Assembly (NCBI RefSeq): GCF_947241125.1
Contig: NZ_OX365700.1
Coordinates: forward strand, 2,078,001 to 2,142,000
DNA length: 64,000 bases
Direction of reading: 5' to 3'
Source of the DNA: Nitrospira tepida
GTDB taxonomy: Bacteria > Nitrospirota > Nitrospiria > Nitrospirales > Nitrospiraceae
This document shows positions 24,127 through 40,927 of the stretch, piece after piece. Position numbers and translations under genes: made by a program. Within the stretch, counting starts at the first letter, position 1. Every line of letters begins with the position of its first letter. Below the pieces are notes generated by a model, which worked only from the letters and a program-made list of their open reading frames with translations, was not told the origin of the DNA and made no database searches.

Positions 24127-25259
24127 GACAGGATCGGGCGGAACGGTCCACTGCGGCTAAACCCGAAGAAAGTGCGCGAGTTCAGCAGCGCTCTAGGCTG
24201 GCAAGCCTCGCTGGACTGCTCCTCCTGTTCGCAGTTCTCCTGGGCGGAACGATGCCGGACTCCGCGGAAGCCGTCTGTCCGAAGAACACGAATATCCTGG
24301 CCGATACCCTGGTGAAGACCTGCTGGGAATGCATGTTTCCCATCAGTCTCTTCGGGTTCACGCTCACGGAGGTCGGGGAGGACTCGACTCGTCCCGCCGT
24401 CGGGCCTGGGATCTCCGCCGTCTATCCGCCTCAGCTCTGCGGCTGCGTGTGTCTCACGCCGTACCTCTGCGTCCCGGGCATACCGCTTGGCATCTGGGAG
24501 CCGGTCCGACTGGTCGAAATCGTCCGCACGCCGCTCTGCTTCCCGGCTCTCAACGGGATCACGTTGGGGCCGGAGTTCGTGTTCGAGGGACGCGGATCGG
24601 CCAATACCAATATGGATTCCCCCGACCTGGACTTCACCTTTTACCATTCGCACTTCTACATCTTTCCCCTCTGGGCCATCGTCGGCATCGCGGTGGACTG
24701 GGCTTGTGTCAATCCCAGCGCCGCCGGCGACGAGATCGATCTGGCGTACCTGTCTGAGATCGACCCCTCCTGGAACGATGACCTGCTGGCACTCATTCTG
24801 TTCCCGGAAGCCCTCTTGTTGGGGAATCCGCTCACGGTCGCGGCCTGTGCCGCCGATTCCCTTGCCGCGTCAGCTGGTTTTCCCATCGATCCCTTGTTCT
24901 GGTGCGCGGGAAGTTTCGGCTTGATGTACCCGACGACGGGCAACGTGTCGGAGTCGAGCGGCCAGCTCAAACCAGCGGCGCTGGCCATGTCGCGCCTGCT
25001 GGCTCGGCTGGCCCGCTTCGGCACCGAGTTCTATACGGCAGCGGACGGGCCGTTGATCTGCACGGACTTTCCGACCGGCCTGATTGTGAAGAGTCAATAC
25101 AAATACCAGTTGCTTTACCCGATCCCCAATGTCCCGGCGCCCTGTTGCCAGCCGATCGGTCGAACGGTGCTGATGTGGGGGATGGGCAAGATGGTGCCGG
25201 TGATCGGAGAAGACTTCGTCTTTCTCCTGTGGAAGCTGCAGCGTTGCTGTCTGCTGTAG
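24123..25259 (+). CDS. traU: TraU, mating-pair assembly protein
   Basis: A 378-residue Cys-rich periplasmic protein, close to the usual TraU length. It has a long N-terminal leader (LASLAGLLLLFAVLLGGT, ending SAEA) and the family pattern: VKTCWECMFPISLFG, CGCVCLTPYLCVPGIPLGIW, EPVRLVEIVRTPLCFPALNG and the conserved C-terminal CCQPIGRTVLMWG. About 16 Cys residues would need DsbC. It is translationally coupled to traW and is the last gene before the foreign recombination module that separates it from traF. Confidence 0.93.
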   Translation: MRQDRAERSTAAKPEESARVQQRSRLASLAGLLLLFAVLLGGTMPDSAEAVCPKNTNILADTLVKTCWECMFPISLFGFTLTEVGEDSTRPAVGPGISAVYPPQLCGCVCLTPYLCVPGIPLGIWEPVRLVEIVRTPLCFPALNGITLGPEFVFEGRGSANTNMDSPDLDFTFYHSHFYIFPLWAIVGIAVDWACVNPSAAGDEIDLAYLSEIDPSWNDDLLALILFPEALLLGNPLTVAACAADSLAASAGFPIDPLFWCAGSFGLMYPTTGNVSESSGQLKPAALAMSRLLARLARFGTEFYTAADGPLICTDFPTGLIVKSQYKYQLLYPIPNVPAPCCQPIGRTVLMWGMGKMVPVIGEDFVFLLWKLQRCCLL

Positions 25260-25391
25260 CGAGAAAGGGGGGTCAATATCTTTTATGTAACATTCGTTCC
25301 TCTGGAAAACTTCGCCAAGACCGGCTTTCTGCAAGGCATTCTCACATCCCTATGCCATGATCGTTTCCGAAAAAAACCAGCTTGCGCTGTC

Positions 25392-25429
25392 GTTACGTTT
25401 CATGTAACCTACGTTACATGAAAGGTAAC
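25392..25429. repeat. 17-bp inverted repeat before the tyrosine recombinase gene
   Basis: GTTACGTTTCATGTAAC (25392-25408) and GTTACATGAAAGGTAAC (25413-25429) are inverted copies matching at 16 of 17 positions around a 4-bp centre. Further copies of the ATGTAAC core lie at 25285-25291 (direct) and 25481-25487 (inverted). It covers the ATG at 25418. Either an operator of the module's XRE protein or a recombinase core site is possible. Confidence 0.6.
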
Positions 25430-25435
25430 GACCGA

Positions 25436-26432
25436 ATGGGGCCATTTTCCGCAACCGCGGAGAATGTCCTTCCTGCCAACGTTACATTTCTTGATCCGCC
25501 TGAACAACTTTATGCCGCGATGCTGGAAGGGTGGCGGCTTCAGCAGCACAGTCGTCATCTAAACCCTTCCACGATTAAAGCGCGTCATCGGCTTGTCCAG
25601 CGCTTTCAACAGTACACGGATACATTTCCCTGGCAGTGGAAGCCAGAAGACCTTGTCGAGTTCAGTGCCGAGCTCTCGCAAAAGCTCAGTGTCTCAACTC
25701 TTCGCCAATACCAGACTACTCTTCAGTTATTTCTGGAGTATGTCACCGATCGGAGATACGGGTGGGTGGAACGCTGTGAGCGCGAGATTGGATCTTCCAT
25801 CATTCAAATCTGTGATGAATGGAACACGGTCTCACACGCTACAGAATACGAGGGCCGTCCCAGCCGTCGCCCATTTACCTTCGACGAGATCGATAGATTG
25901 TTTGAATATGTCGAACAACACCATGCAGAGGTGCTTCGCCAGCGCCGAAAAGGTTCCCTTGCGGCGGCGCGCGATGCCGTGATGGTCAAGGTCGCCTATG
26001 CCTTTGGTCTCCGGCGAACGGAGGTGTGCAGGCTTGATATCAGTGATTTTCGGCGCAATCCTGATCCGAAAATGAAACATCTTGGTCGGTTCGGTGTTCT
26101 GCACGTGCGATTTGGGAAGGCCGCGAACGGGGGGCCGCCACGACGGCGGTTGGTCTTCACTGTGCCGGAGGTCAGCTGGATTGTGGAGGTTCTCGAACAA
26201 TATCTCAGAGACATCAGGACCCTGTTCAATGTGGGTGCCCATCCTGCCTTATTTCCGACAGAGCGGGTTCAATACCTTGGGAGTAAGGACTTTGGATCTC
26301 GCTTTCAACACATCGTGGAGGAGGCGGGTTTGCCTGTCGAATTATCCCTTCATCATCTGCGCCATACGTACGCCACCAATCTAGCCGAATATGGGTACGA
26401 TCCCGTGTTCATTCAACAGCAACTCGGGCACG
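25436..26432 (+). pseudogene. tyrosine recombinase, 5' part (gene split by IS21 array)
   Basis: A XerC/D-like site-specific recombinase of the phage integrase family. The N-terminal SAM-like domain runs to about residue 125 (LNPSTIKARHRLVQRFQQYT). The catalytic domain has Arg I in YAFGLRRTEVCRLDI and H-x-x-R in LSLHHLRHTYATNLAE, and breaks off at QQQLGH. The native sequence is cut at 26432 by the IS21-family array; the frame then runs a few codons into the IS and stops. The missing end with the catalytic Tyr lies at 38014-38123. ATG 25436 is the preferred start and ATG 25418 an alternative. As it stands the protein lacks its nucleophile and should be inactive. Confidence 0.9.
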
Positions 26433-26675
26433 TGCGTATTCCGACCCAAGCCGGCCACTGATTCCGACGCAAGTCGGCCACCCATTCCGACGGAACGCGG
26501 CCACTGATTCCGACCGGAAGTCGGCCACTTTTCCGAGTCCTCTCGGAATCGGTGGCCGACATCCCTCGGAATAACAGGCGGCTCGCCGCCGTCCGATCGT
26601 TCTGGAGCCATTCGCGACGCAGGTCCTCCTCACCCTTGGGTATCGTGTCCCTTCCAATTTATGAGGGAGGAACCG

Positions 26676-28235
26676 ATGCCAGCGGAGCGAGTGACCATGC
26701 GAAAGATCAAAGACATTCTGCGACTGAAATGGGCCTGTGGGCTCAGTAACCGACAAGTCGCCGCGAGTTGTGGCGTGGCGCGGAGCACGGTCGCCGAGAC
26801 GCTCTATCGGGCCACGGCGGCCGGGCTGACCTGGCCGTTCCCGGAGGACCTGGACGATCAGCAGCTGGAAACCCGGCTGTATCCGGTGGCCCCCTCGCCG
26901 ACCGGCCCGCCGCGGGCTGTGCCGGACTGGGCGACCGTGCACCAGGAATTGACGCGGAAGGGTGTCACCCTGGCGCTCCTCTGGCAGGAGTACAAAGCCC
27001 AGCATCCGGCCGGCTATCAGTACAGCCGCTTTTGCGATCGCTATGGGGCCTGGCGGGCCACCCTGGATCGGTGTCTGCGGCAGGAGCATCGTGCCGGTGA
27101 GAAACTCTTCGTTGACTATGCGGGCCAGACCGTGCCGGTCCAGGATCGGCAGACCGGCGAGGTGCGGCCAGCCCAGATCTTCGTCGCGGTGTGGGGGGCC
27201 TCCAATTACACCTACGCCGAGGCCACCTGGACCCAAACGCTGCCGGATTGGATTGGTGCGCATACGCGCGCCTTCGCCTCGTTCGGCGGCGTGCCGGAAA
27301 TCATCGTGCCCGATAACTTACGGAGCGGCGTCACCAAGGCCTGCCGCTATGAGCCCGAGTTGAACCCGACCTATGCCGATCTGGCCCGGCACTACGATGT
27401 CGCGGTGATTCCGGCTCGGGTGCGCAAACCGCGCGACAAGGCGAAGGTCGAAGCGGGCGTCCTGCTCGTCGAACGATGGATCCTGGCCTGTCTGCGGCAT
27501 CACCCCTTCTTCAGTCTGGCGGAGCTCAATATCGCCATCGCCGCCTGTTTGGACCGGCTGAATCGCCGCCCCTTCAAGAAACTCCCTGGTTGTCGACAGT
27601 CTCAGTTCGACGCGGTGGACCGGCCCGCCTTGCAGCCGCTGCCCACCGAGCCCTACGTCTATGCCGAGTGGCGGACGGCGCGGGTGAATATCGATTCGCA
27701 TCTTGAGGTCGAGGGCCACTACTACAGCGTCCCGTCGCCGTTGGTCCATACGGCCCTCGATGTGCGGCTGACCGTGACCACCGTCGAGTGCTTCCACAAA
27801 AACCAGCGGGTGGCGAGCCATGTGCGGAGTGCGGAGCGGGGTCGGCATACGACGGTGGTGGCGCATCTCCCCTCGGCGCATCAGCAATATCTGGCATGGT
27901 CTCCCTCCCGCCTGATCCAGTGGGCCGAGACCGTGGGGCCCGCGACCGGAACCGTCGTGGCCGAACTCCTGGCGCGGCGGCCGCATCCCGAGCAAGGCTA
28001 TCGCTCCTGTCTGGGCATTCTCCGCCTGGAGCGTGCGTACGGCGTGGCGCGACTCGAAGCCGCCTGCCGGCGGGCGCAGGCGCTGGAGGCGTTCACCTAC
28101 AAGAGTGTGCAGTCCATTTTAAAGACCGGACTCGACCAACAGCCGCTCCCCGAGCCGGTGCTGACGGTCCCGCTGCCGTTCGAGCACGCCCATCTGCGCG
28201 GCACCACCTATTACCAACAGGAAGGAGGGTTCTGA
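26676..28235 (+). CDS. istA: IS21-family transposase IstA, copy 1
   Basis: A 519-residue DDE transposase. The N-terminal HTH (LRLKWACGLSNRQVAASCGV) is followed by the rve core with FVDYAG (D147), VPDNLRSG (D213) and KAKVEAGVLLVERW (E259), then a beta-barrel domain with EGHYYSVP. ATG 26676 has AGGGAGG 5 nt upstream; an ATG at 26697 is a weaker alternative. It performs strand cleavage and transfer together with IstB. Confidence 0.95.
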   Translation: MPAERVTMRKIKDILRLKWACGLSNRQVAASCGVARSTVAETLYRATAAGLTWPFPEDLDDQQLETRLYPVAPSPTGPPRAVPDWATVHQELTRKGVTLALLWQEYKAQHPAGYQYSRFCDRYGAWRATLDRCLRQEHRAGEKLFVDYAGQTVPVQDRQTGEVRPAQIFVAVWGASNYTYAEATWTQTLPDWIGAHTRAFASFGGVPEIIVPDNLRSGVTKACRYEPELNPTYADLARHYDVAVIPARVRKPRDKAKVEAGVLLVERWILACLRHHPFFSLAELNIAIAACLDRLNRRPFKKLPGCRQSQFDAVDRPALQPLPTEPYVYAEWRTARVNIDSHLEVEGHYYSVPSPLVHTALDVRLTVTTVECFHKNQRVASHVRSAERGRHTTVVAHLPSAHQQYLAWSPSRLIQWAETVGPATGTVVAELLARRPHPEQGYRSCLGILRLERAYGVARLEAACRRAQALEAFTYKSVQSILKTGLDQQPLPEPVLTVPLPFEHAHLRGTTYYQQEGGF

Positions 28236-28999
28236 TGTTACGTCATCCCACACTCACGGCGCTGGAGGCGATGAAGCTCACCGGCATGGCCATCGCCTTG
28301 GCGGAGCAATTGGAGATGCCCGACGTCCAGCGGCTCAGCTTCGAGGAACGGCTGGGGCTATTAGTCGATCGCGAGTGCACGGTCCGGGACAATCACCGGT
28401 TGGCGCGGCGGCTGGCCCAGGCCCGGTTCCCCGGCCACGCCACGCTGGAAGATCTCGATTATCGCCATCCCCGGGGGCTGGACAAAAGCGTGATCGCGTC
28501 CCTGGCCACGGGTCAGTGGATTCGCCGTCATGACAATGTGTTGATCGTGGGGCCGACTGGCGCGGGCAAAACGTACCTGGCCTGTGCACTGGCCCAGATG
28601 GCCTGTCGGTTGGGGTGCTCCGCCCTGTATTTGCGACTCCCGCGGTTCTTCCGGGACCTGGCGATCGCCAAAGGCGATGGCCGCTATGGCCGCGTGCTCC
28701 GGAGTCTCGCGAAGACGGACCTCGTGGTGCTGGATGACTGGGGGCTGGCCCCGTTGACCGACGAGCATCGCCGAGATCTCTTGGAACTCCTCGATGATCG
28801 CCATGGACGTCGGGCCACCCTCGTGGCCAGTCAACTCCCGATCGATCACTGGCACACGGCGATCGGGGAGCCGACACTGGCCGACGCGATTCTTGACCGG
28901 CTCGTCCACAATGCCTATAAGATCACTTTGAAAGGAGAATCAATGCGCAAACGGTTAGCCAAATCGGACGGAAGTCGGCCACTGAAGACAGAGCACTGA
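28235..28999 (+). CDS. istB: IS21-family helper ATPase IstB, copy 1
   Basis: A 254-residue AAA+ ATPase related to DnaC. Walker A is VGPTGAGKTY (about 105-114), Walker B is LVVLDDWGL, and a sensor stretch lies in ATLVASQLPIDHWH. The ATG overlaps the istA stop as TGATG, and GGAGGG lies upstream. IstB stimulates transposition and selects the target. The N-terminal in-frame extension seen upstream is an overlap with istA and not a real fusion. Confidence 0.95.
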   Translation: MLRHPTLTALEAMKLTGMAIALAEQLEMPDVQRLSFEERLGLLVDRECTVRDNHRLARRLAQARFPGHATLEDLDYRHPRGLDKSVIASLATGQWIRRHDNVLIVGPTGAGKTYLACALAQMACRLGCSALYLRLPRFFRDLAIAKGDGRYGRVLRSLAKTDLVVLDDWGLAPLTDEHRRDLLELLDDRHGRRATLVASQLPIDHWHTAIGEPTLADAILDRLVHNAYKITLKGESMRKRLAKSDGSRPLKTEH

Positions 29000-29110
29000 G
29001 GCCCTGCGTCGCGGGGCTCCGAGGGGTGGCCGGATTCGCTCGGAATCGGTGGCCGGATTCAGCGGAATACGCACTGCGCAATGCAATCGAATATCTGAAA
29101 GGGGGCTCAC

Positions 29111-29779
29111 GTGAATCTTCCCCAAGAGCTTATGCAGCGGACACTGTCAGCTTTGAAGGCAGCGTGTGCATTTCGGCGGCACCTCCTCAAGCATGGGGGG
29201 GCCATCCACATCACCTCCACCGCCAAGAAATTCTATGCCGTGGAGAAGGGGTTCGTTCGCCTTACGTCTATCCAATCAACTGGTCGACAGGTCACACGAG
29301 TGCTTCTTGGGAGAGGCGCGTTGTTTGGGGAGCTCCCATTTGTGCCAAATCTGGAGATGCTCGAGGAAGTGGCGCTGGCCAACGGCCCAACCGCTGTCCT
29401 TGAGTTCGACTGCTTGTCTGCCGAGAGGGCCATGCAAAGCAGCCTTGAGCTGCAGCGGCTGCTGATCGAAGCGCTTGGCGCGCAGCTACAGATCCTCTCC
29501 CGCCGGCTGCAGTGGCAGCAGACAGACCCGTTAGAAAAGCGCGTGGCCATGGTGCTGTATGATCTGATGTGCTTCGGAGGGACACCCTGTGGCCACGGCC
29601 CTGGCTATGCGATGGATATTCGGCTGACCCATGAGGAGCTCGCAGAAATTGTCGGAGCCGCCCGACCGAGCGTCAGCGCCGTCTTGGGCAAGCTGCATCA
29701 GAAGGAACTCATTTCCTCGACCAGATCCTACCTCTGCATACGAAGCCTTGAGCGATTAAAACACCAACTCTCCCAGTGA
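29111..29779 (+). CDS. Crp/Fnr-family transcriptional regulator, cargo copy 1
   Basis: A 222-residue regulator with an N-terminal cyclic-nucleotide-binding-like beta-roll (AVEKGFVRLTSIQSTGRQVT, LLGRGALFGELPF), a long dimer helix (QRLLIEALGAQLQILSRRLQ) and a C-terminal winged helix (LTHEELAEIVGAARPSVSAV). No N-terminal Cys cluster like that of FNR is present. The start GTG 29111 follows AAAGGGGG. Only 37 bp separate it from the IS right end, so its promoter may be partly IS-derived. It probably controls the downstream P460 gene through the palindrome at 29947-29962. Confidence 0.88.
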   Translation: MNLPQELMQRTLSALKAACAFRRHLLKHGGAIHITSTAKKFYAVEKGFVRLTSIQSTGRQVTRVLLGRGALFGELPFVPNLEMLEEVALANGPTAVLEFDCLSAERAMQSSLELQRLLIEALGAQLQILSRRLQWQQTDPLEKRVAMVLYDLMCFGGTPCGHGPGYAMDIRLTHEELAEIVGAARPSVSAVLGKLHQKELISSTRSYLCIRSLERLKHQLSQ

Positions 29780-29782
29780 CAA

Positions 29783-29814
29783 CACGAGCAGCGGAAACCC
29801 TGCCGCCGCTCGTG
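29783..29814 (+). terminator. hairpin after the Crp/Fnr gene, copy 1
   Basis: CACGAGCAGCGG pairs with CCGCCGCTCGTG (one mismatch) across an 8-nt loop, starting 3 nt after the stop. There is no clear T-run, so it may be a weak or factor-dependent terminator. Confidence 0.5.
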
Positions 29815-29946
29815 CAGACTCATGTTCAAAAGATACTCCCTCTCGCAGAGGAATGAAGCTGATCTAGCCCACTATCTCCAGTGGGAGAGTCTACCGTTCG
29901 GCACACGGCCTTCCCCTTAGACGCCCCAAATGCAATTCATCTGACT

Positions 29947-29990
29947 TGTCATATTCATGACAGACCCCCACACAGTCTCTGCGGTACTGT
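29947..29990 (+). promoter_or_regulatory. candidate Crp/Fnr-activated promoter of the P460 gene, copy 1
   Basis: The perfect palindrome TGTCAT-ATTC-ATGACA spans 29947-29962. A -10 element TACTGT follows at 29985-29990, giving a start near 29997. The palindrome centre is then about 42 bp upstream, the classic position of a class II Crp/Fnr activator site. The resulting leader of about 270 nt (29997-30268) has no other recognised feature. Confidence 0.55.
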
Positions 29991-30268
29991 TCTCTACATG
30001 ACGCCGTTCACGTATGTGGCCCAATCAGACGCCGGTACCATCTGAGGAATGGTTGCGTGCGAAGGCCGGCGTTGCCGAGACGTGATCTGATGCCACCACG
30101 GGGCTCTCGTGTGTTCGGAGGAAGATTATGCGGAGTACGCGTCTGGATGTTTCTAGGACGCGCTGAATACCACGCTTGAACGACAGCGCGAACGAGGCTG
30201 TTTGCACCCGATGCAGGCAGGATGTGCGAGGACAATCGAATGGGCTCTACAACAACTGGAGGGGCATG

Positions 30269-30883
30269 ATGAACAAGATCTGGTCTGTCATGGGTATGGC
30301 GTGTGTTGCCGTGGCGCTTCAGAGCAGCCCCTTGCGGGCCGAAGCAGAGCCGCTCTTCGTGCCCAATGTGGTCGATGCGGCAACCGGAGCCCTTCGCGTG
30401 CCGGCCAATTATACAGAGTGGCCGACGTTGGGGACGTGGGCGCATGCCAATACTGGCGAGGCTCTCGAGAAGATGGGTCCAGGCCTTCACGAGTACCATG
30501 TGGTGTATACCCAGCCGGAAACCATTGCGTACTACAAGAAGACTGGCCAATTTCCTGATGGCGCCGTGTTAGTCAAAGAACTGTTGAATGCCACGACGAT
30601 GTCGATGACGACAGGATTGGCCGTCGGCCACGCAACCACTATTAAAGGGTGGTTCGTACTCGTGCGCGACACCAAAGGCCGGCACAAAGAGTCGAGCCTC
30701 TGGGGAGATGGATGGGCCTGGTCTCTGTTCAACGCAGAAGATCCGAAACGAACAGTGTCGAAAAACTACAAGACGGATTGTCTTCCTTGCCATACACCAG
30801 CCAAAGAGCTTGCCAGGGCCAATGCCCCTGATGCAGACAAGTGGATTTATGCATTTGGCTACCCGGTGCTCCAGAAGAAATAG
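30269..30883 (+). CDS. cytochrome P460-family c-type cytochrome, cargo copy 1
   Basis: A 204-residue exported protein with a signal peptide (MNKIWSVMGMACVAVALQSS, cleaved near RAEA). The P460 domain includes NYTEWPTLGTWAHAN, HEYHVVYTQPETIAYYKKTG, FPDGAVLVKEL and the haem c motif CLPCHTPAKE, ending WIYAFGYPVL. Family members oxidise hydroxylamine or act on NO in the periplasm using a Lys-crosslinked haem; the exact substrate here is unknown. ATG 30269 is preferred (GGAGG 6 nt upstream) over the adjacent ATG 30266. Two identical gene copies suggest a dosage effect. Confidence 0.85.
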   Translation: MNKIWSVMGMACVAVALQSSPLRAEAEPLFVPNVVDAATGALRVPANYTEWPTLGTWAHANTGEALEKMGPGLHEYHVVYTQPETIAYYKKTGQFPDGAVLVKELLNATTMSMTTGLAVGHATTIKGWFVLVRDTKGRHKESSLWGDGWAWSLFNAEDPKRTVSKNYKTDCLPCHTPAKELARANAPDADKWIYAFGYPVLQKK

Positions 30884-31145
30884 GCGAGTTTAAGCGTCTC
30901 AGTGCGTATTCCGACCCAAGCCGGCCACTGATTCCGACGCAAGTCGGCCACCCATTCCGACGGAACGCGGCCACTGATTCCGACCGGAAGTCGGCCACTT
31001 TTCCGAGTCCTCTCGGAATCGGTGGCCGACATCCCTCGGAATAACAGGCGGCTCGCCGCCGTCCGATCGTTCTGGAGCCATTCGCGACGCAGGTCCTCCT
31101 CACCCTTGGGTATCGTGTCCCTTCCAATTTATGAGGGAGGAACCG

Positions 31146-32705
31146 ATGCCAGCGGAGCGAGTGACCATGCGAAAGATCAAAGACATTCTGCGACTGAAAT
31201 GGGCCTGTGGGCTCAGTAACCGACAAGTCGCCGCGAGTTGTGGCGTGGCGCGGAGCACGGTCGCCGAGACGCTCTATCGGGCCACGGCGGCCGGGCTGAC
31301 CTGGCCGTTCCCGGAGGACCTGGACGATCAGCAGCTGGAAACCCGGCTGTATCCGGTGGCCCCCTCGCCGACCGGCCCGCCGCGGGCTGTGCCGGACTGG
31401 GCGACCGTGCACCAGGAATTGACGCGGAAGGGTGTCACCCTGGCGCTCCTCTGGCAGGAGTACAAAGCCCAGCATCCGGCCGGCTATCAGTACAGCCGCT
31501 TTTGCGATCGCTATGGGGCCTGGCGGGCCACCCTGGATCGGTGTCTGCGGCAGGAGCATCGTGCCGGTGAGAAACTCTTCGTTGACTATGCGGGCCAGAC
31601 CGTGCCGGTCCAGGATCGGCAGACCGGCGAGGTGCGGCCAGCCCAGATCTTCGTCGCGGTGTGGGGGGCCTCCAATTACACCTACGCCGAGGCCACCTGG
31701 ACCCAAACGCTGCCGGATTGGATTGGTGCGCATACGCGCGCCTTCGCCTCGTTCGGCGGCGTGCCGGAAATCATCGTGCCCGATAACTTACGGAGCGGCG
31801 TCACCAAGGCCTGCCGCTATGAGCCCGAGTTGAACCCGACCTATGCCGATCTGGCCCGGCACTACGATGTCGCGGTGATTCCGGCTCGGGTGCGCAAACC
31901 GCGCGACAAGGCGAAGGTCGAAGCGGGCGTCCTGCTCGTCGAACGATGGATCCTGGCCTGTCTGCGGCATCACCCCTTCTTCAGTCTGGCGGAGCTCAAT
32001 ATCGCCATCGCCGCCTGTTTGGACCGGCTGAATCGCCGCCCCTTCAAGAAACTCCCTGGTTGTCGACAGTCTCAGTTCGACGCGGTGGACCGGCCCGCCT
32101 TGCAGCCGCTGCCCACCGAGCCCTACGTCTATGCCGAGTGGCGGACGGCGCGGGTGAATATCGATTCGCATCTTGAGGTCGAGGGCCACTACTACAGCGT
32201 CCCGTCGCCGTTGGTCCATACGGCCCTCGATGTGCGGCTGACCGTGACCACCGTCGAGTGCTTCCACAAAAACCAGCGGGTGGCGAGCCATGTGCGGAGT
32301 GCGGAGCGGGGTCGGCATACGACGGTGGTGGCGCATCTCCCCTCGGCGCATCAGCAATATCTGGCATGGTCTCCCTCCCGCCTGATCCAGTGGGCCGAGA
32401 CCGTGGGGCCCGCGACCGGAACCGTCGTGGCCGAACTCCTGGCGCGGCGGCCGCATCCCGAGCAAGGCTATCGCTCCTGTCTGGGCATTCTCCGCCTGGA
32501 GCGTGCGTACGGCGTGGCGCGACTCGAAGCCGCCTGCCGGCGGGCGCAGGCGCTGGAGGCGTTCACCTACAAGAGTGTGCAGTCCATTTTAAAGACCGGA
32601 CTCGACCAACAGCCGCTCCCCGAGCCGGTGCTGACGGTCCCGCTGCCGTTCGAGCACGCCCATCTGCGCGGCACCACCTATTACCAACAGGAAGGAGGGT
32701 TCTGA
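31146..32705 (+). CDS. istA: IS21-family transposase IstA, copy 2
   Basis: The same 519-residue DDE transposase as in copy 1, with no visible substitution. The HTH, the three catalytic acidic residues and the ribosome site are all present, so it should be active. Confidence 0.95.
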   Translation: MPAERVTMRKIKDILRLKWACGLSNRQVAASCGVARSTVAETLYRATAAGLTWPFPEDLDDQQLETRLYPVAPSPTGPPRAVPDWATVHQELTRKGVTLALLWQEYKAQHPAGYQYSRFCDRYGAWRATLDRCLRQEHRAGEKLFVDYAGQTVPVQDRQTGEVRPAQIFVAVWGASNYTYAEATWTQTLPDWIGAHTRAFASFGGVPEIIVPDNLRSGVTKACRYEPELNPTYADLARHYDVAVIPARVRKPRDKAKVEAGVLLVERWILACLRHHPFFSLAELNIAIAACLDRLNRRPFKKLPGCRQSQFDAVDRPALQPLPTEPYVYAEWRTARVNIDSHLEVEGHYYSVPSPLVHTALDVRLTVTTVECFHKNQRVASHVRSAERGRHTTVVAHLPSAHQQYLAWSPSRLIQWAETVGPATGTVVAELLARRPHPEQGYRSCLGILRLERAYGVARLEAACRRAQALEAFTYKSVQSILKTGLDQQPLPEPVLTVPLPFEHAHLRGTTYYQQEGGF

Positions 32706-33469
32706 TGTTACGTCATCCCACACTCACGGCGCTGGAGGCGATGAAGCTCACCGGCATGGCCATCGCCTTGGCGGAGCAATTGGAGATGCCCGACGTCCAG
32801 CGGCTCAGCTTCGAGGAACGGCTGGGGCTATTAGTCGATCGCGAGTGCACGGTCCGGGACAATCACCGGTTGGCGCGGCGGCTGGCCCAGGCCCGGTTCC
32901 CCGGCCACGCCACGCTGGAAGATCTCGATTATCGCCATCCCCGGGGGCTGGACAAAAGCGTGATCGCGTCCCTGGCCACGGGTCAGTGGATTCGCCGTCA
33001 TGACAATGTGTTGATCGTGGGGCCGACTGGCGCGGGCAAAACGTACCTGGCCTGTGCACTGGCCCAGATGGCCTGTCGGTTGGGGTGCTCCGCCCTGTAT
33101 TTGCGACTCCCGCGGTTCTTCCGGGACCTGGCGATCGCCAAAGGCGATGGCCGCTATGGCCGCGTGCTCCGGAGTCTCGCGAAGACGGACCTCGTGGTGC
33201 TGGATGACTGGGGGCTGGCCCCGTTGACCGACGAGCATCGCCGAGATCTCTTGGAACTCCTCGATGATCGCCATGGACGTCGGGCCACCCTCGTGGCCAG
33301 TCAACTCCCGATCGATCACTGGCACACGGCGATCGGGGAGCCGACACTGGCCGACGCGATTCTTGACCGGCTCGTCCACAATGCCTATAAGATCACTTTG
33401 AAAGGAGAATCAATGCGCAAACGGTTAGCCAAATCGGACGGAAGTCGGCCACTGAAGACAGAGCACTGA
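32705..33469 (+). CDS. istB: IS21-family helper ATPase IstB, copy 2
   Basis: Identical to the IstB of copy 1, with intact Walker A (VGPTGAGKTY) and Walker B (LVVLDDWGL) motifs. It overlaps the istA stop by one base (TGATG). Confidence 0.95.
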   Translation: MLRHPTLTALEAMKLTGMAIALAEQLEMPDVQRLSFEERLGLLVDRECTVRDNHRLARRLAQARFPGHATLEDLDYRHPRGLDKSVIASLATGQWIRRHDNVLIVGPTGAGKTYLACALAQMACRLGCSALYLRLPRFFRDLAIAKGDGRYGRVLRSLAKTDLVVLDDWGLAPLTDEHRRDLLELLDDRHGRRATLVASQLPIDHWHTAIGEPTLADAILDRLVHNAYKITLKGESMRKRLAKSDGSRPLKTEH

Positions 33470-33580
33470 GGCCCTGCGTCGCGGGGCTCCGAGGGGTGGC
33501 CGGATTCGCTCGGAATCGGTGGCCGGATTCAGCGGAATACGCACTGCGCAATGCAATCGAATATCTGAAAGGGGGCTCAC

Positions 33581-34249
33581 GTGAATCTTCCCCAAGAGCT
33601 TATGCAGCGGACACTGTCAGCTTTGAAGGCAGCGTGTGCATTTCGGCGGCACCTCCTCAAGCATGGGGGGGCCATCCACATCACCTCCACCGCCAAGAAA
33701 TTCTATGCCGTGGAGAAGGGGTTCGTTCGCCTTACGTCTATCCAATCAACTGGTCGACAGGTCACACGAGTGCTTCTTGGGAGAGGCGCGTTGTTTGGGG
33801 AGCTCCCATTTGTGCCAAATCTGGAGATGCTCGAGGAAGTGGCGCTGGCCAACGGCCCAACCGCTGTCCTTGAGTTCGACTGCTTGTCTGCCGAGAGGGC
33901 CATGCAAAGCAGCCTTGAGCTGCAGCGGCTGCTGATCGAAGCGCTTGGCGCGCAGCTACAGATCCTCTCCCGCCGGCTGCAGTGGCAGCAGACAGACCCG
34001 TTAGAAAAGCGCGTGGCCATGGTGCTGTATGATCTGATGTGCTTCGGAGGGACACCCTGTGGCCACGGCCCTGGCTATGCGATGGATATTCGGCTGACCC
34101 ATGAGGAGCTCGCAGAAATTGTCGGAGCCGCCCGACCGAGCGTCAGCGCCGTCTTGGGCAAGCTGCATCAGAAGGAACTCATTTCCTCGACCAGATCCTA
34201 CCTCTGCATACGAAGCCTTGAGCGATTAAAACACCAACTCTCCCAGTGA
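33581..34249 (+). CDS. Crp/Fnr-family transcriptional regulator, cargo copy 2
   Basis: The exact second copy of the 222-residue regulator, with GTG start and the same 37-bp distance to the IS right end. Both copies would read the same promoter-proximal sequence, so regulator dosage is doubled together with its presumed P460 target. Confidence 0.88.
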   Translation: MNLPQELMQRTLSALKAACAFRRHLLKHGGAIHITSTAKKFYAVEKGFVRLTSIQSTGRQVTRVLLGRGALFGELPFVPNLEMLEEVALANGPTAVLEFDCLSAERAMQSSLELQRLLIEALGAQLQILSRRLQWQQTDPLEKRVAMVLYDLMCFGGTPCGHGPGYAMDIRLTHEELAEIVGAARPSVSAVLGKLHQKELISSTRSYLCIRSLERLKHQLSQ

Positions 34250-34252
34250 CAA

Positions 34253-34284
34253 CACGAGCAGCGGAAACCCTGCCGCCGCTCGTG
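34253..34284 (+). terminator. hairpin after the Crp/Fnr gene, copy 2
   Basis: The same 12-bp stem (one mismatch) and 8-nt loop as in copy 1. Confidence 0.5.
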
Positions 34285-34416
34285 CAGACTCATGTTCAAA
34301 AGATACTCCCTCTCGCAGAGGAATGAAGCTGATCTAGCCCACTATCTCCAGTGGGAGAGTCTACCGTTCGGCACACGGCCTTCCCCTTAGACGCCCCAAA
34401 TGCAATTCATCTGACT

Positions 34417-34460
34417 TGTCATATTCATGACAGACCCCCACACAGTCTCTGCGGTACTGT
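34417..34460 (+). promoter_or_regulatory. candidate Crp/Fnr-activated promoter of the P460 gene, copy 2
   Basis: The second copy of the TGTCAT-ATTC-ATGACA palindrome (34417-34432) and the -10 TACTGT (34455-34460). Confidence 0.55.
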
Positions 34461-34738
34461 TCTCTACATGACGCCGTTCACGTATGTGGCCCAATCAGAC
34501 GCCGGTACCATCTGAGGAATGGTTGCGTGCGAAGGCCGGCGTTGCCGAGACGTGATCTGATGCCACCACGGGGCTCTCGTGTGTTCGGAGGAAGATTATG
34601 CGGAGTACGCGTCTGGATGTTTCTAGGACGCGCTGAATACCACGCTTGAACGACAGCGCGAACGAGGCTGTTTGCACCCGATGCAGGCAGGATGTGCGAG
34701 GACAATCGAATGGGCTCTACAACAACTGGAGGGGCATG

Positions 34739-35353
34739 ATGAACAAGATCTGGTCTGTCATGGGTATGGCGTGTGTTGCCGTGGCGCTTCAGAGCAGCCC
34801 CTTGCGGGCCGAAGCAGAGCCGCTCTTCGTGCCCAATGTGGTCGATGCGGCAACCGGAGCCCTTCGCGTGCCGGCCAATTATACAGAGTGGCCGACGTTG
34901 GGGACGTGGGCGCATGCCAATACTGGCGAGGCTCTCGAGAAGATGGGTCCAGGCCTTCACGAGTACCATGTGGTGTATACCCAGCCGGAAACCATTGCGT
35001 ACTACAAGAAGACTGGCCAATTTCCTGATGGCGCCGTGTTAGTCAAAGAACTGTTGAATGCCACGACGATGTCGATGACGACAGGATTGGCCGTCGGCCA
35101 CGCAACCACTATTAAAGGGTGGTTCGTACTCGTGCGCGACACCAAAGGCCGGCACAAAGAGTCGAGCCTCTGGGGAGATGGATGGGCCTGGTCTCTGTTC
35201 AACGCAGAAGATCCGAAACGAACAGTGTCGAAAAACTACAAGACGGATTGTCTTCCTTGCCATACACCAGCCAAAGAGCTTGCCAGGGCCAATGCCCCTG
35301 ATGCAGACAAGTGGATTTATGCATTTGGCTACCCGGTGCTCCAGAAGAAATAG
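34739..35353 (+). CDS. cytochrome P460-family c-type cytochrome, cargo copy 2
   Basis: An identical 204-residue product with signal peptide and the haem motif CLPCHTPAKE. The gene ends 19 bp before IS copy 3. There is no sign of divergence between the two cargo copies, which implies very recent duplication. Confidence 0.85.
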   Translation: MNKIWSVMGMACVAVALQSSPLRAEAEPLFVPNVVDAATGALRVPANYTEWPTLGTWAHANTGEALEKMGPGLHEYHVVYTQPETIAYYKKTGQFPDGAVLVKELLNATTMSMTTGLAVGHATTIKGWFVLVRDTKGRHKESSLWGDGWAWSLFNAEDPKRTVSKNYKTDCLPCHTPAKELARANAPDADKWIYAFGYPVLQKK

Positions 35354-35615
35354 GCGAGTTTAAGCGTCTCAGTGCGTATTCCGACCCAAGCCGGCCACTG
35401 ATTCCGACGCAAGTCGGCCACCCATTCCGACGGAACGCGGCCACTGATTCCGACCGGAAGTCGGCCACTTTTCCGAGTCCTCTCGGAATCGGTGGCCGAC
35501 ATCCCTCGGAATAACAGGCGGCTCGCCGCCGTCCGATCGTTCTGGAGCCATTCGCGACGCAGGTCCTCCTCACCCTTGGGTATCGTGTCCCTTCCAATTT
35601 ATGAGGGAGGAACCG

Positions 35616-37175
35616 ATGCCAGCGGAGCGAGTGACCATGCGAAAGATCAAAGACATTCTGCGACTGAAATGGGCCTGTGGGCTCAGTAACCGACAAGTCG
35701 CCGCGAGTTGTGGCGTGGCGCGGAGCACGGTCGCCGAGACGCTCTATCGGGCCACGGCGGCCGGGCTGACCTGGCCGTTCCCGGAGGACCTGGACGATCA
35801 GCAGCTGGAAACCCGGCTGTATCCGGTGGCCCCCTCGCCGACCGGCCCGCCGCGGGCTGTGCCGGACTGGGCGACCGTGCACCAGGAATTGACGCGGAAG
35901 GGTGTCACCCTGGCGCTCCTCTGGCAGGAGTACAAAGCCCAGCATCCGGCCGGCTATCAGTACAGCCGCTTTTGCGATCGCTATGGGGCCTGGCGGGCCA
36001 CCCTGGATCGGTGTCTGCGGCAGGAGCATCGTGCCGGTGAGAAACTCTTCGTTGACTATGCGGGCCAGACCGTGCCGGTCCAGGATCGGCAGACCGGCGA
36101 GGTGCGGCCAGCCCAGATCTTCGTCGCGGTGTGGGGGGCCTCCAATTACACCTACGCCGAGGCCACCTGGACCCAAACGCTGCCGGATTGGATTGGTGCG
36201 CATACGCGCGCCTTCGCCTCGTTCGGCGGCGTGCCGGAAATCATCGTGCCCGATAACTTACGGAGCGGCGTCACCAAGGCCTGCCGCTATGAGCCCGAGT
36301 TGAACCCGACCTATGCCGATCTGGCCCGGCACTACGATGTCGCGGTGATTCCGGCTCGGGTGCGCAAACCGCGCGACAAGGCGAAGGTCGAAGCGGGCGT
36401 CCTGCTCGTCGAACGATGGATCCTGGCCTGTCTGCGGCATCACCCCTTCTTCAGTCTGGCGGAGCTCAATATCGCCATCGCCGCCTGTTTGGACCGGCTG
36501 AATCGCCGCCCCTTCAAGAAACTCCCTGGTTGTCGACAGTCTCAGTTCGACGCGGTGGACCGGCCCGCCTTGCAGCCGCTGCCCACCGAGCCCTACGTCT
36601 ATGCCGAGTGGCGGACGGCGCGGGTGAATATCGATTCGCATCTTGAGGTCGAGGGCCACTACTACAGCGTCCCGTCGCCGTTGGTCCATACGGCCCTCGA
36701 TGTGCGGCTGACCGTGACCACCGTCGAGTGCTTCCACAAAAACCAGCGGGTGGCGAGCCATGTGCGGAGTGCGGAGCGGGGTCGGCATACGACGGTGGTG
36801 GCGCATCTCCCCTCGGCGCATCAGCAATATCTGGCATGGTCTCCCTCCCGCCTGATCCAGTGGGCCGAGACCGTGGGGCCCGCGACCGGAACCGTCGTGG
36901 CCGAACTCCTGGCGCGGCGGCCGCATCCCGAGCAAGGCTATCGCTCCTGTCTGGGCATTCTCCGCCTGGAGCGTGCGTACGGCGTGGCGCGACTCGAAGC
37001 CGCCTGCCGGCGGGCGCAGGCGCTGGAGGCGTTCACCTACAAGAGTGTGCAGTCCATTTTAAAGACCGGACTCGACCAACAGCCGCTCCCCGAGCCGGTG
37101 CTGACGGTCCCGCTGCCGTTCGAGCACGCCCATCTGCGCGGCACCACCTATTACCAACAGGAAGGAGGGTTCTGA
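35616..37175 (+). CDS. istA: IS21-family transposase IstA, copy 3
   Basis: A third identical 519-residue IstA. The DDE residues are intact and the ribosome site is the same as in the other copies. Confidence 0.95.
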   Translation: MPAERVTMRKIKDILRLKWACGLSNRQVAASCGVARSTVAETLYRATAAGLTWPFPEDLDDQQLETRLYPVAPSPTGPPRAVPDWATVHQELTRKGVTLALLWQEYKAQHPAGYQYSRFCDRYGAWRATLDRCLRQEHRAGEKLFVDYAGQTVPVQDRQTGEVRPAQIFVAVWGASNYTYAEATWTQTLPDWIGAHTRAFASFGGVPEIIVPDNLRSGVTKACRYEPELNPTYADLARHYDVAVIPARVRKPRDKAKVEAGVLLVERWILACLRHHPFFSLAELNIAIAACLDRLNRRPFKKLPGCRQSQFDAVDRPALQPLPTEPYVYAEWRTARVNIDSHLEVEGHYYSVPSPLVHTALDVRLTVTTVECFHKNQRVASHVRSAERGRHTTVVAHLPSAHQQYLAWSPSRLIQWAETVGPATGTVVAELLARRPHPEQGYRSCLGILRLERAYGVARLEAACRRAQALEAFTYKSVQSILKTGLDQQPLPEPVLTVPLPFEHAHLRGTTYYQQEGGF

Positions 37176-37939
37176 TGTTACGTCATCCCACACTCACGGC
37201 GCTGGAGGCGATGAAGCTCACCGGCATGGCCATCGCCTTGGCGGAGCAATTGGAGATGCCCGACGTCCAGCGGCTCAGCTTCGAGGAACGGCTGGGGCTA
37301 TTAGTCGATCGCGAGTGCACGGTCCGGGACAATCACCGGTTGGCGCGGCGGCTGGCCCAGGCCCGGTTCCCCGGCCACGCCACGCTGGAAGATCTCGATT
37401 ATCGCCATCCCCGGGGGCTGGACAAAAGCGTGATCGCGTCCCTGGCCACGGGTCAGTGGATTCGCCGTCATGACAATGTGTTGATCGTGGGGCCGACTGG
37501 CGCGGGCAAAACGTACCTGGCCTGTGCACTGGCCCAGATGGCCTGTCGGTTGGGGTGCTCCGCCCTGTATTTGCGACTCCCGCGGTTCTTCCGGGACCTG
37601 GCGATCGCCAAAGGCGATGGCCGCTATGGCCGCGTGCTCCGGAGTCTCGCGAAGACGGACCTCGTGGTGCTGGATGACTGGGGGCTGGCCCCGTTGACCG
37701 ACGAGCATCGCCGAGATCTCTTGGAACTCCTCGATGATCGCCATGGACGTCGGGCCACCCTCGTGGCCAGTCAACTCCCGATCGATCACTGGCACACGGC
37801 GATCGGGGAGCCGACACTGGCCGACGCGATTCTTGACCGGCTCGTCCACAATGCCTATAAGATCACTTTGAAAGGAGAATCAATGCGCAAACGGTTAGCC
37901 AAATCGGACGGAAGTCGGCCACTGAAGACAGAGCACTGA
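37175..37939 (+). CDS. istB: IS21-family helper ATPase IstB, copy 3
   Basis: A third identical 254-residue IstB, overlapping istA by one base. Downstream lies the IS right end, then the remainder of the interrupted recombinase gene. Confidence 0.95.
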   Translation: MLRHPTLTALEAMKLTGMAIALAEQLEMPDVQRLSFEERLGLLVDRECTVRDNHRLARRLAQARFPGHATLEDLDYRHPRGLDKSVIASLATGQWIRRHDNVLIVGPTGAGKTYLACALAQMACRLGCSALYLRLPRFFRDLAIAKGDGRYGRVLRSLAKTDLVVLDDWGLAPLTDEHRRDLLELLDDRHGRRATLVASQLPIDHWHTAIGEPTLADAILDRLVHNAYKITLKGESMRKRLAKSDGSRPLKTEH

Positions 37940-38013
37940 GGCCCTGCGTCGCGGGGCTCCGAGGGGTGGCCGGATTCGCTCGGAATCGGTGGCCGGATTC
38001 AGCGGAATACGCA

Positions 38014-38123
38014 GGCACGCATTTCTCTCGACAACAGCCATCTATACACATGTCAGCAGTGATTTCAAAAACCACCAACTGCAACAGGCGCTTGAACGCC
38101 TCTATCGGCCAAAGGAGGAGTAA
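38014..38123 (+). pseudogene. tyrosine recombinase, 3' part (gene split by IS21 array)
   Basis: After one copy of the GGCACG duplication, the sequence continues the recombinase frame as AFLSTTAIYTHVSSDF..., including the catalytic Tyr in IYTHV, and ends at TAA 38121-38123. Joined to the part ending at 26432, it gives a complete XerC/D-like C-terminus (LGH, then Y about 12 residues later). The last codons contain AAAGGAGG, which also serves as the ribosome site of the next gene. Confidence 0.9.
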
Positions 38124-38124
38124 G

Positions 38125-38454
38125 GTGACCAAGAAAATGGCCGCTGAATGGAATCTCAAGAAAGTGATGGAGCAGCATCATTTTCATTCGACTACAGAGC
38201 TGGTCCCGATGCTGGCGCAACGGGGAGTCCAGTTGTCTCGCATTCAAGTGTATCGACTCGTTGCCCAGGCGCCTCTCCGTCTCACACTGGATCTGCTGGC
38301 TGCGTTATGTGACATCTTCGCCTGCACACCGAATGATCTGATCACCATCAAACAGGTAGACCGTCAAGAAAGGAAAAAGCTTGCTGCAGCCGGAGAGACA
38401 AAATCATCAGGTCGATTGTCCCTCATTAAGACACGTGTCCATCGACCGAAGTAA
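38125..38454 (+). CDS. small XRE/Cro-type HTH protein of the recombinase module
   Basis: A 109-residue protein starting at GTG 38125, with AAAGGAGGAG ending 4 nt upstream and only one base after the recombinase stop, so it is translationally coupled. The HTH covers residues about 8-65 (LVPMLAQRGVQLSRIQVYRL, LDLLAALCDIFACTPNDLIT), the compact 'HTH_26' form. The C-terminus is basic. It lies between the recombinase and the zinc-ribbon gene, and could regulate the module or direct recombination. The ATGTAAC repeats upstream of the recombinase are candidate binding sites. Confidence 0.8.
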   Translation: MTKKMAAEWNLKKVMEQHHFHSTTELVPMLAQRGVQLSRIQVYRLVAQAPLRLTLDLLAALCDIFACTPNDLITIKQVDRQERKKLAAAGETKSSGRLSLIKTRVHRPK

Positions 38455-38466
38455 GAGACGGAAGCC

Positions 38467-40449
38467 ATGGCGCCTGTTGGGATCTGTCCGATCTGCAACG
38501 AAAAACGACTCCTGAAGCGCATCCTTCATCAACGTCGGGTGTGTGTCCGGTGTCGTGCGGCCCAAAAGAAAATCTGTGGCACCTGCGGCAATGCCCGTAG
38601 GGTCGTAAGGCATTTGAATGGGCAGCCAATTTGTCACCAATGTTGGAAATGCCATCCCTCTCAGTTGGCTACCTGCACAGTATGTCAGAGCTTCGGTCCC
38701 GTTGTGGTGAAGAGAGCCGGAAGCCCCATCTGCGGGGCGTGTTACCCTCGTCACACTGAGCCCTGTTCGCTCTGTGGTCAGCAGAGACCAGTCCAGAGTC
38801 GACGTGACGGAAGGGCCTTGTGTATGTGTTGTTATATGGCGATCCGGGACGGCAAAGACCCTTTGCACGTGCGCCGGCGGCCAAGGCGACCCGGACGCAT
38901 ACGCATCTGTTCGAACTGTGGTCAACGAAAGTTGTGCCAAGGATTTCTAGGGCCGACGCCCTTATGTGCAGAGTGCGCCGGCCGTCCACTCGTGCAGTGC
39001 GTGTGGTGCGGTGAAAAGAAACCTGTGACGGCGTATTGGCCAGGTGGCCCCGTCTGTAATCATTGTGCCGAAGAATTTAGGCAAAAGCCGAAGGAATGTA
39101 CAAGATGTAGAAATATGGGCATGGCCGTCCCATTCGAGAAGCGGCAGATCATTTGCCGGCCGTGCGCTGGTTGGGAGGATTCAAGCCGTTGTGTGCACTG
39201 CGGGCAGCAAAAACCGCGCTATGCAAAGGGGTATTGTGTTGACTGTTATCTGCGGCACGTGGCCCTTCCGAAGTTACTGAATCTCCAAGGTGCTTCATCA
39301 AATACCCCACATCTGAACCGGGTAATGGAGACCTTACTCAGCCGAAAGCCCATCTCCGTGGTGAATTGGTTGAAAACAGGAAGCGCGGCTCTGCTCCACT
39401 CCATCGCGCAAGGCCAAACAGCACTCTCACATTCCGCACTTGACAAACATACGTCCCCCGGCCACGCGGAGTTCGTGCGCTCAATCCTTGTGGAAGCAGG
39501 TGGACTGCCAGTGAGGAATCGAATGGCCGCCCACATTGACCACTGGCTCGAGGTCTTCAGAGCCGAAGTGCCCGACCAGCATCGTCTTCTCATTATGATG
39601 TTTGCTGAATGGCGTATAGTGCGTCGACTCCGTGGGAAAATTCAACACCAACGCCTGACACGCTGGGCTTTGCACTCAATGAAATTGCGGTTACGGATCG
39701 CCGTCAGGTTTTTGGAGTGGTTAGATAGACAGGAAAAGACGCTCCAGCAATGCACCCAAAAGGATGTTGAATGCTGGCTCACTGAGAGTAAGGTGACGAC
39801 CCCATATCTCGTCCGCGACTTTTTGCAGTGGACATCGCTCCGCAAGTTCTCACGCCCGCTAGAGGTGCCTCTTCTGAAATCGAGCGGAATGGTTCTCGTT
39901 GACGAGGACAGGCGCTGGGCAATGATTGAGCGATTAAGCAACGATGAATCCATGAGACTCGAACTTCGCCTCTGCGGCCTATTCGTTCTTGTTTTTGGCC
40001 AACATGTCAGCCGGATCGTCACGTTACTGGATTCTATGGTGCAAATCGACGAGAAGAAGAACGTAAAGATAGTCTTTGGAGGGGAACCAGTTGTGATGCC
40101 ACCCGTTATAGCAAGATTGCTCTCCAAGCAATTAGTGGCTTGCCGTGGAAATCCAAACGGTCGTCGAGCCGATGGGACGTACTGGTTGTTTCCGGGACGA
40201 CATTACGGGAGTCATCGGAACGTGGTCCGCTTGCAGAAGAACCTTAACAACATTGGGGTGGAGTGTCGGAGGGGCCGTAACAGTGCCTTGTTACAATTAG
40301 CGAGCCAACTTCATCCGGCAGTTCTCGGACGGCTCTTACATATGTCACCGAACGTAGCAGTCAGGTGGTCCCAAAATGCTGGCGGTGGCTTTAATCGATA
40401 TGTGGCCTCTCGAACAGCCAGGATCGAGAACGGCCATCACTCTGCATGA
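38467..40449 (+). CDS. zinc-ribbon array protein with degenerate tyrosine-recombinase domain
   Basis: A 660-residue protein. Residues 1-275 contain about ten C-x2-C pairs (CPICNEKRLLKRIL, CGTCGNARRVVRHLNGQPIC, CSLCGQQRPV, CSNCGQRKLC, CVWCGEKKPVTAYWPGGPVC, CVHCGQQKP), which look like tandem zinc ribbons. Residues about 300-650 have an integrase-like layout: a SAM-like helical domain (MKLRLRIAVRFLEWLDRQEK), then LFVLVFGQHVSRIVTLLDSM and GRNSALLQLASQL, LLHMS and VAVRWSQ. The catalytic Arg (G-L-R in true integrases) is His, and the Tyr position appears to be Trp. It is probably a catalytically dead accessory recombinase. It follows the XRE gene by 12 bp. Confidence 0.75.
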   Translation: MAPVGICPICNEKRLLKRILHQRRVCVRCRAAQKKICGTCGNARRVVRHLNGQPICHQCWKCHPSQLATCTVCQSFGPVVVKRAGSPICGACYPRHTEPCSLCGQQRPVQSRRDGRALCMCCYMAIRDGKDPLHVRRRPRRPGRIRICSNCGQRKLCQGFLGPTPLCAECAGRPLVQCVWCGEKKPVTAYWPGGPVCNHCAEEFRQKPKECTRCRNMGMAVPFEKRQIICRPCAGWEDSSRCVHCGQQKPRYAKGYCVDCYLRHVALPKLLNLQGASSNTPHLNRVMETLLSRKPISVVNWLKTGSAALLHSIAQGQTALSHSALDKHTSPGHAEFVRSILVEAGGLPVRNRMAAHIDHWLEVFRAEVPDQHRLLIMMFAEWRIVRRLRGKIQHQRLTRWALHSMKLRLRIAVRFLEWLDRQEKTLQQCTQKDVECWLTESKVTTPYLVRDFLQWTSLRKFSRPLEVPLLKSSGMVLVDEDRRWAMIERLSNDESMRLELRLCGLFVLVFGQHVSRIVTLLDSMVQIDEKKNVKIVFGGEPVVMPPVIARLLSKQLVACRGNPNGRRADGTYWLFPGRHYGSHRNVVRLQKNLNNIGVECRRGRNSALLQLASQLHPAVLGRLLHMSPNVAVRWSQNAGGGFNRYVASRTARIENGHHSA

Positions 40450-40927
40450 TGAGAAATGAGCTGTACTGTCGTCTCTGGCCGTGACGCTCGGCCGTGGGGT
40501 CGTGTCCCCGATTTCCGTAGAAATTGGCTTCTCCCCGCATTGACTCTACAAAATAACCTCCACATTTCCCTTATACGAGGCGATCGGCATCCGGCCTGAC
40601 CTCCAGATCCCCCCTCAGGTAGCCGCGGTACTCTCCAAGGCGGTCAGGATCGCACTGAGCTGCTGCCAGCCATCGATCCGCCGCGTGCTATGACGGGGAC
40701 GTATTACTAAGTTGGGGGCCGCAAGGTTTCAATTAGGCCATGGGACGAATGGAGAGAGAGCCCCTTACCGGAAAGAGGGTTAGGAATGGAAGAATACCCC
40801 CTATTACGAAAATCACCCCTTTACCAGTCCCCAGCTGGACGCGGCGTTGTACTTCATGGCTCTCCGGCGATGGGCGACTGTGCGAGGGTTACTCAGAATG
40901 GAGTTTGGTTTCTGGTGGAGTAGGAGT
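40450..40927. other. intergenic region at the right boundary of the recombinase module
   Basis: 478 bp with no convincing complete gene. A hairpin CCGATTTC-CGTA-GAAATTGG (40508-40527) follows the zinc-ribbon gene and may end its transcript. On the minus strand, about 40727-40615 keeps an open frame reading APNLVIRPRHSTRRIDGWQQ before a stop, possibly the tail of a lost gene. Between 40759 and 40828, related C-rich motifs (CCCCTTACC, its inverse GGGTTAGG, CCCCCTATTAC, CCCCTTTACC) recur. The right end of the inserted module should lie here, but no repeat matching the 25392-25429 region was found. Confidence 0.4.

Follow-up and report, generated by a model that had tools for sequence, protein, structure and literature searches.

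The closest described counterparts of the locus studied here are the "XER modules", noted once on the Antarctic Arthrobacter plasmids pA2H2, pA8H1 and pA40H2 (Romaniuk 2018, PMC6305408). Our locus lies in a 64,000-nucleotide stretch (hereafter the window; positions 2,078,001 to 2,142,000 of NZ_OX365700.1) of the complete 4.73-Mb chromosome of Nitrospira tepida, whose nearest named relative is Nitrospira moscoviensis. It comprises three genes: int (tyrosine recombinase), xre (small Cro/C1-type helix-turn-helix [HTH] protein) and znr (zinc ribbons joined to a recombinase-like domain). The XER modules are built from these three families, arranged in identical order, and were presented, in one paragraph of a plasmid survey, as an integrative element with cargo and with boundaries between umuD and umuC. 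The third gene was named recombinase XerC there, and the section concerned does not mention zinc ribbons, inactive residues, ends or a wider distribution. Whereas the XER modules carry cargo, the Nitrospira element has none. The initial annotation of the window, which knew of no characterised system of this composition, was nearly right: the trio had been noted in that survey, and we found no functional study of it in the open-access literature. As far as could be found, the zinc-ribbon array, the family-wide loss of catalytic residues and the occurrence in Nitrospirota are unreported.

Other systems resemble the trio in part. SE elements (intA-tfp-intB-srap, PMC10214605) share with it coupled translation, target specificity, a recombinase-like protein lacking RHRY (Tfp) and a 6-bp footprint; compared by description, they differ in having two active recombinases and four genes, in being reported only from Gammaproteobacteria and in having no reported zinc array. 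GInt islands (ginABCD, PMC5385486), likewise compared by description, are also operons of recombinases and a small DNA-binding protein with cargo, and GinC lacks the first arginine, but they contain three recombinase-like genes and a helix-loop-helix-like GinD and differ in gene order and families. Tn554 and its relatives, among them actinobacterial pairs with a very long recombinase (Van Houdt 2012, PMC3414803), combine an ordinary recombinase, a very long one and a small protein with imperfect inverted ends and 6-bp junctions; both recombinases of Tn554 are catalytic, whereas in the trio only Int appears to be. RIT elements (RitA/B/C; PMC3414803, PMC8138268) likewise consist of three overlapping genes, a recombinase trio, but all three of their recombinases have a possible catalytic motif, whereas here one protein is active, one is degenerate and one is an HTH protein; assignment to the RIT class was rejected because only int holds the catalytic set. 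We regard the trio as a family that has drawn little notice and whose dead partner is unusual, but which does not form a new category of system. Tfp of SE elements and GinC of GInt islands are precedents for a recombinase-like subunit in which all or part of the catalytic set is missing. The trio offers a minimal case of this kind: it has three genes in 4 kb, its ends are defined, empty sites are known, cultured N. moscoviensis carries an intact copy, and the dead subunit includes an obvious candidate for DNA binding.

We consider it likely that the locus is a compact tyrosine-recombinase transposon whose three coupled genes encode a catalytic recombinase (int), an HTH protein (xre) and a protein that joins zinc ribbons to a dead recombinase (znr). 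Judged from its sequence, it is a bounded insertion with strict gene coupling and with a single complete catalytic set in the trio. The insertion was delimited from three states of one locus. An F-type conjugation operon runs through the window, and the trio lies between traU (24123–25259) and the next tra gene. The locus is empty in a genome (G069) whose tra DNA there matches that of the window at 93% and 91% identity, with the matches stopping at window position 25257 and restarting at 40837; it is occupied in N. moscoviensis; and it is occupied in the window, where it also contains an array of insertion sequences (IS). The whole element, including this later array, extends from 25264 to 40832 on the forward strand, as does every gene and end described below; the block is absent from G069 and 100% identical between the window and N. 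moscoviensis, with tra flanks on either side averaging about 93–95%. Its length is 3,982 bp once the array and one of the two duplication copies are subtracted. The extent first proposed, 25392–40449, was too narrow, and its start falls at the start of a real dyad (arms from 25389).

The element begins with the int-proximal terminal repeat AAAGGGG (25264–25270) and ends with its inverted match CCCCTTT followed by 10 bp (ACCAGTCCCC; 40816–40832). The intact copy of N. moscoviensis has the left end AAAGGGG and the right end CAGTCCCC. Just before AAAGGGG, the two copies differ by 3 nucleotides (CCC; GCGAG versus GCGAGCCC). Since the limits of identity are sharp at both ends and the left junctions differ, two recent insertions into the same site are favored over a single old one. 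The Nitrospira element contains only the trio and 383 bp; it has no cargo, and cargo lies outside the core definition of the element.

The genes are coupled in the way that the initial annotation had described. The reading of int begins at ATG 25436 (alternative ATG, 25418), stops at the array border at 26432 and restarts at 38020. The 5′ part (25436–26432) lacks the catalytic tyrosine, and the 3′ part (38020–38123) contains it (IYTHV) together with the stop codon TAA (38121–38123). Joined across the array, int encodes 366–372 amino acids that match PF00589 and end in HHLRHT...LGHAFLSTTAIYTHV, with the classical HHLRHT, LGH and Y motifs. The TAA is followed by one base and then by the GTG of xre (38125–38454; 109 amino acids; PF13443 HTH_26, E = 5.6e-12), whose Shine-Dalgarno sequence, AAAGGAGG, is located within the 3′ end of int. 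A further 12 bp separate the xre stop from the ATG of znr (38467–40449; 660 amino acids), which encodes about 8 zinc ribbons (residues 7–260) and a degenerate tyrosine-recombinase domain (about residues 360–650). The IS21-family array (26433–38013) is flanked by a 6-bp duplication, GGCACG (26427–26432 and 38014–38019). Because N. moscoviensis and a second genome, G422, hold the trio uninterrupted, with the array absent and a single GGCACG at the junction, the array is a later insertion; with it left out of the reading, the genes are tightly coupled, as had been proposed. The array has broken int ahead of the tyrosine codon, and the complete enzyme can therefore not be made from the window copy. 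No second close copy of int was found in the window genome, and the window copy of the element is probably immobile unless Int is supplied from another copy.

A second case came from actinobacterial plasmids. A protein search with Znr returned 250 plasmid records (PLSDB), nearly all actinobacterial, the best of which were 27–30% identical over the full length; on these plasmids znr is mostly annotated as "hypothetical protein", and naming it would allow many plasmid insertions and their cargo to be delimited. In Arthrobacter pA2H2 and pA40H2, the trio and cargo genes (TerC, hypothetical proteins and dTMP kinase) lie between umuD and a umuC-type polymerase gene, and in the empty counterpart pA58H3 the umuDC pair is uninterrupted. 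The Arthrobacter element is 7,542 bp long, with inverted ends (GGTGCTATT/AATAGCACC) that gave p of about 0.006 in a shuffling test. Its right end consists of AATAGCACC plus 10 bp, the same layout as the Nitrospira CCCCTTT plus 10 bp. The right-junction hexamer that follows these 10 bp is ATAGAA in pA2H2 versus AAACTA in pA40H2, in copies that are otherwise near-identical. Junctions thus differ between copies in two pairs only, this one on the right and the Nitrospira pair on the left. Rhodococcus modules are 94–99% similar in differing plasmid surroundings; in the Rhodococcus loci L023 and L024, homology fades gradually and no sharp ends were obtained. Together, the three-state comparison in Nitrospira and the empty and occupied Arthrobacter plasmids give reproducible ends in two unrelated hosts, which bears out the proposal of a self-contained mobile unit.

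Co-occurrence of the three families had been set beforehand as a check that could have contradicted this proposal. Profiles run on six-frame translations detected int, xre and znr in the same order and orientation in all 22 loci, which came from Nitrospira and from plasmids of Streptomyces, Rhodococcus, Mycobacterium, Arthrobacter, Gordonia, Microbacterium and Pseudonocardia; some of the genes were decayed, and the genes of family modules overlap or are coupled. Protein distances among 16 modules covaried in Mantel tests (int–znr, r = 0.92; int–xre, 0.88; xre–znr, 0.81; permutation p = 0.0002). Phylum-wide, the trio is rare, with profile matches in the window genome and G422 among 395 genomes, plus N. 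moscoviensis, and a protein search of the 60 nearest relatives found znr in the window genome only. Viral contigs, queried with Znr itself and with the XRE profile, contained no relatives, and neither did a phage collection. These results indicate, at the level of sequence comparison, that the element is mobile in the evolutionary sense and belongs to a family of tyrosine-recombinase transposons.

Several modules depart from the simple arrangement. Plasmid pYLC1 carries two divergent modules, and pA8H1 has a second, inverted int–HTH pair at the right end. In Pseudonocardia autotrophica pPA12743CP, the order is int-int-xre-znr-xre-znr, with two modules interleaved or merged, an arrangement that might reveal how partners are exchanged. 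In three Rhodococcus loci (L020–L022), the module belongs to a unit of five genes: an additional phage-type integrase gene lies upstream, and a coupled gene overlaps the znr stop.

At the protein level, Int passes the tyrosine-recombinase test (R-K-HxxR-H-Y plus PF00589); the window copy does so only if the array is skipped over in reading. All 10 family members compared have G191, R193, K228, H306, R309, H332 and Y341 (numbered as in N. moscoviensis). The XRE protein is 32–50% identical to its actinobacterial partners. Znr contains 17 CxxC motifs (16 non-overlapping) within residues 7–260, as compared with a mean of 2.3 and a maximum of 8 in shuffled sequences; an array of ribbons had been predicted correctly, but 16 non-overlapping motifs allow up to about 8 ribbons and not the roughly ten zinc-ribbon-like pairs first counted. 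Its relatives have 16–18 CxxC motifs, and three of nine match the Pfam double zinc ribbon; the window Znr itself gave no match in Pfam or NCBIfam, and PDB profile searches found none. The predicted integrase-like domain, homologous to the core-binding and catalytic domains of recombinases, was recovered when a 24-sequence profile of the C-terminal domain was aligned with a 19-recombinase profile (hhalign, 95%, E = 3.4e-8), and one Znr homologue matched the phrog_1 integrase (E = 1.9e-8). At the tyrosine position, none of the 23 readable copies has Y and 14 have R, with tryptophan as the next residue in all 23; Arg I is in place in 4 of the 23 and the second Arg is kept in 21. Znr is thus apparently a catalytically dead tyrosine-recombinase homologue, in line with the inactive partner that had been suggested.

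A dyad lies just before the start of int (25389–25432; 20-bp arms at 25389–25408 and 25413–25432, a 4-bp spacer and four GTTAC half-sites). Its score of 17 was the best obtained and was reached in none of 30 shuffles. The Arthrobacter counterpart has perfect 16-bp arms and a 7-bp spacer, and other families have a weaker dyad or none. A universal recombination site was therefore rejected, and we regard the window dyad as a candidate XRE operator or recombinase-binding site. GTTACAT occurs four times in the 3,982-bp element, always in its first 225 bp (window 25284–25490; N. moscoviensis locus L002, 8406–8612), and these repeats are candidate binding sites at the int-proximal end.

A mechanism can be proposed from these features. 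Int would perform all DNA cutting. Znr would be a protomer of the end complexes that cleaves nothing itself, and its zinc ribbons, by binding subterminal or target DNA, would determine the choice of ends and target. XRE might bind the dyad before int and thereby repress the operon, steer the direction of the reaction, or both. Movement may proceed via a circle or a copied intermediate and leave short stretches of the former site at the junctions, as for Tn554 and SE elements; our analysis of the junction hexamers suggests a route like that proposed for those elements (PMC10214605). A stronger version, in which an active and a dead recombinase form an obligate heteromer, about 8 zinc ribbons select the ends and the insertion sites (junctions between coupled genes), XRE is a directionality switch and the family spans Actinomycetota and Nitrospirota, is one that we hold tentatively, with somewhat less than even confidence.

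Several observations weigh against the transposon and its dead partner. The transposon reading rests on comparing sequences, and movement itself was not observed. The Nitrospira terminal repeat is short (7 bp) and, taken alone, weak (p about 0.10). An earlier hhalign run with 9 versus 10 sequences was negative, the later positive run having used more diverse sequences. A single-sequence AlphaFold model of the C-terminal half of Znr was unusable (predicted local distance difference test score, 37), so the fold and residue mapping of Znr depend on profiles. A Znr tyrosine about 10 residues downstream of the expected position is conserved in 21 of 23 copies and, from its conservation, could be an unconventional nucleophile. 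Both Nitrospira copies occupy one site, as do three Arthrobacter left junctions, and a single insertion spread by homologous recombination is therefore retained as an alternative. In addition, modules often lie close to par genes, which would also fit a plasmid function.

Such a plasmid function is the rival that survives best, although we consider it unlikely. The trio would then be a plasmid-maintenance recombination system, for multimer resolution or linked to partition, copied between plasmids and not a transposon. Most of the relatives are indeed plasmid-borne, several modules lie beside ParA/ParB genes, and the strong dyads that two families have just 5′ of int look like one resolution site. 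However, such a site is not common to the whole family, chromosomal copies in tra operons have an empty counterpart, umuDC is interrupted by the trio along with cargo, and the trio is present on linear Streptomyces plasmids, which need no dimer resolution. Slightly less probable still is that the family is no longer mobile and that a single past insertion came to be shared by the two Nitrospira elements, as an identical block, through homologous recombination. The shared site and orientation in the two Nitrospira genomes fit this explanation, and whole conjugative regions have clearly been exchanged: that of G422 (L050, C2:463001–482000) is 99–100% identical to the window over 19 kb even though G422 belongs to another genus of the family, which implies that the conjugative element was transferred in its entirety very recently. 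Conversely, both limits of the identity block coincide with the element ends as closely as the flanks can resolve, the left junctions differ by CCC, the right-junction hexamers differ between near-identical Arthrobacter copies, and the Rhodococcus modules occupy different contexts. Membership in the actinobacterial Tn554-related class (TnpA/TnpB/TnpC; Van Houdt 2012), suggested by the shared general plan of an ordinary recombinase, an abnormally long one and a small partner, by the same hosts and by the Tn554-like junction hexamers, is very improbable and was rejected, as four pBD2 proteins (Famint27/33/36/41, assigned to families by position and length) have no significant match to the znr profile and at most one CxxC each, TnpA and TnpB of Tn554 are both reported to have the RHRY residues that Znr lacks, and the trio differs in gene order and in its small partner (HTH_26, as against a DUF6262-type TnpC).

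Apart from the transposon, the window records a younger event in the IS21-family array. It consists of three IS copies (istA/istB) that are 100% identical and alternate with two 100% identical 1,829-bp spacers encoding a Crp/Fnr-type regulator and a cytochrome P460-like protein, with a repeat unit of 4,470 bp; by its sequence, the array is a recent tandem amplification. Since the spacer has no further occurrence in the window genome, its donor lies outside that genome. A different IS21 copy, 89% identical, is present in the same tra operon of N. moscoviensis (L002, 18661–21304), corresponding to window positions 47132–47137, and the N. moscoviensis genome contains about nine full copies of it.

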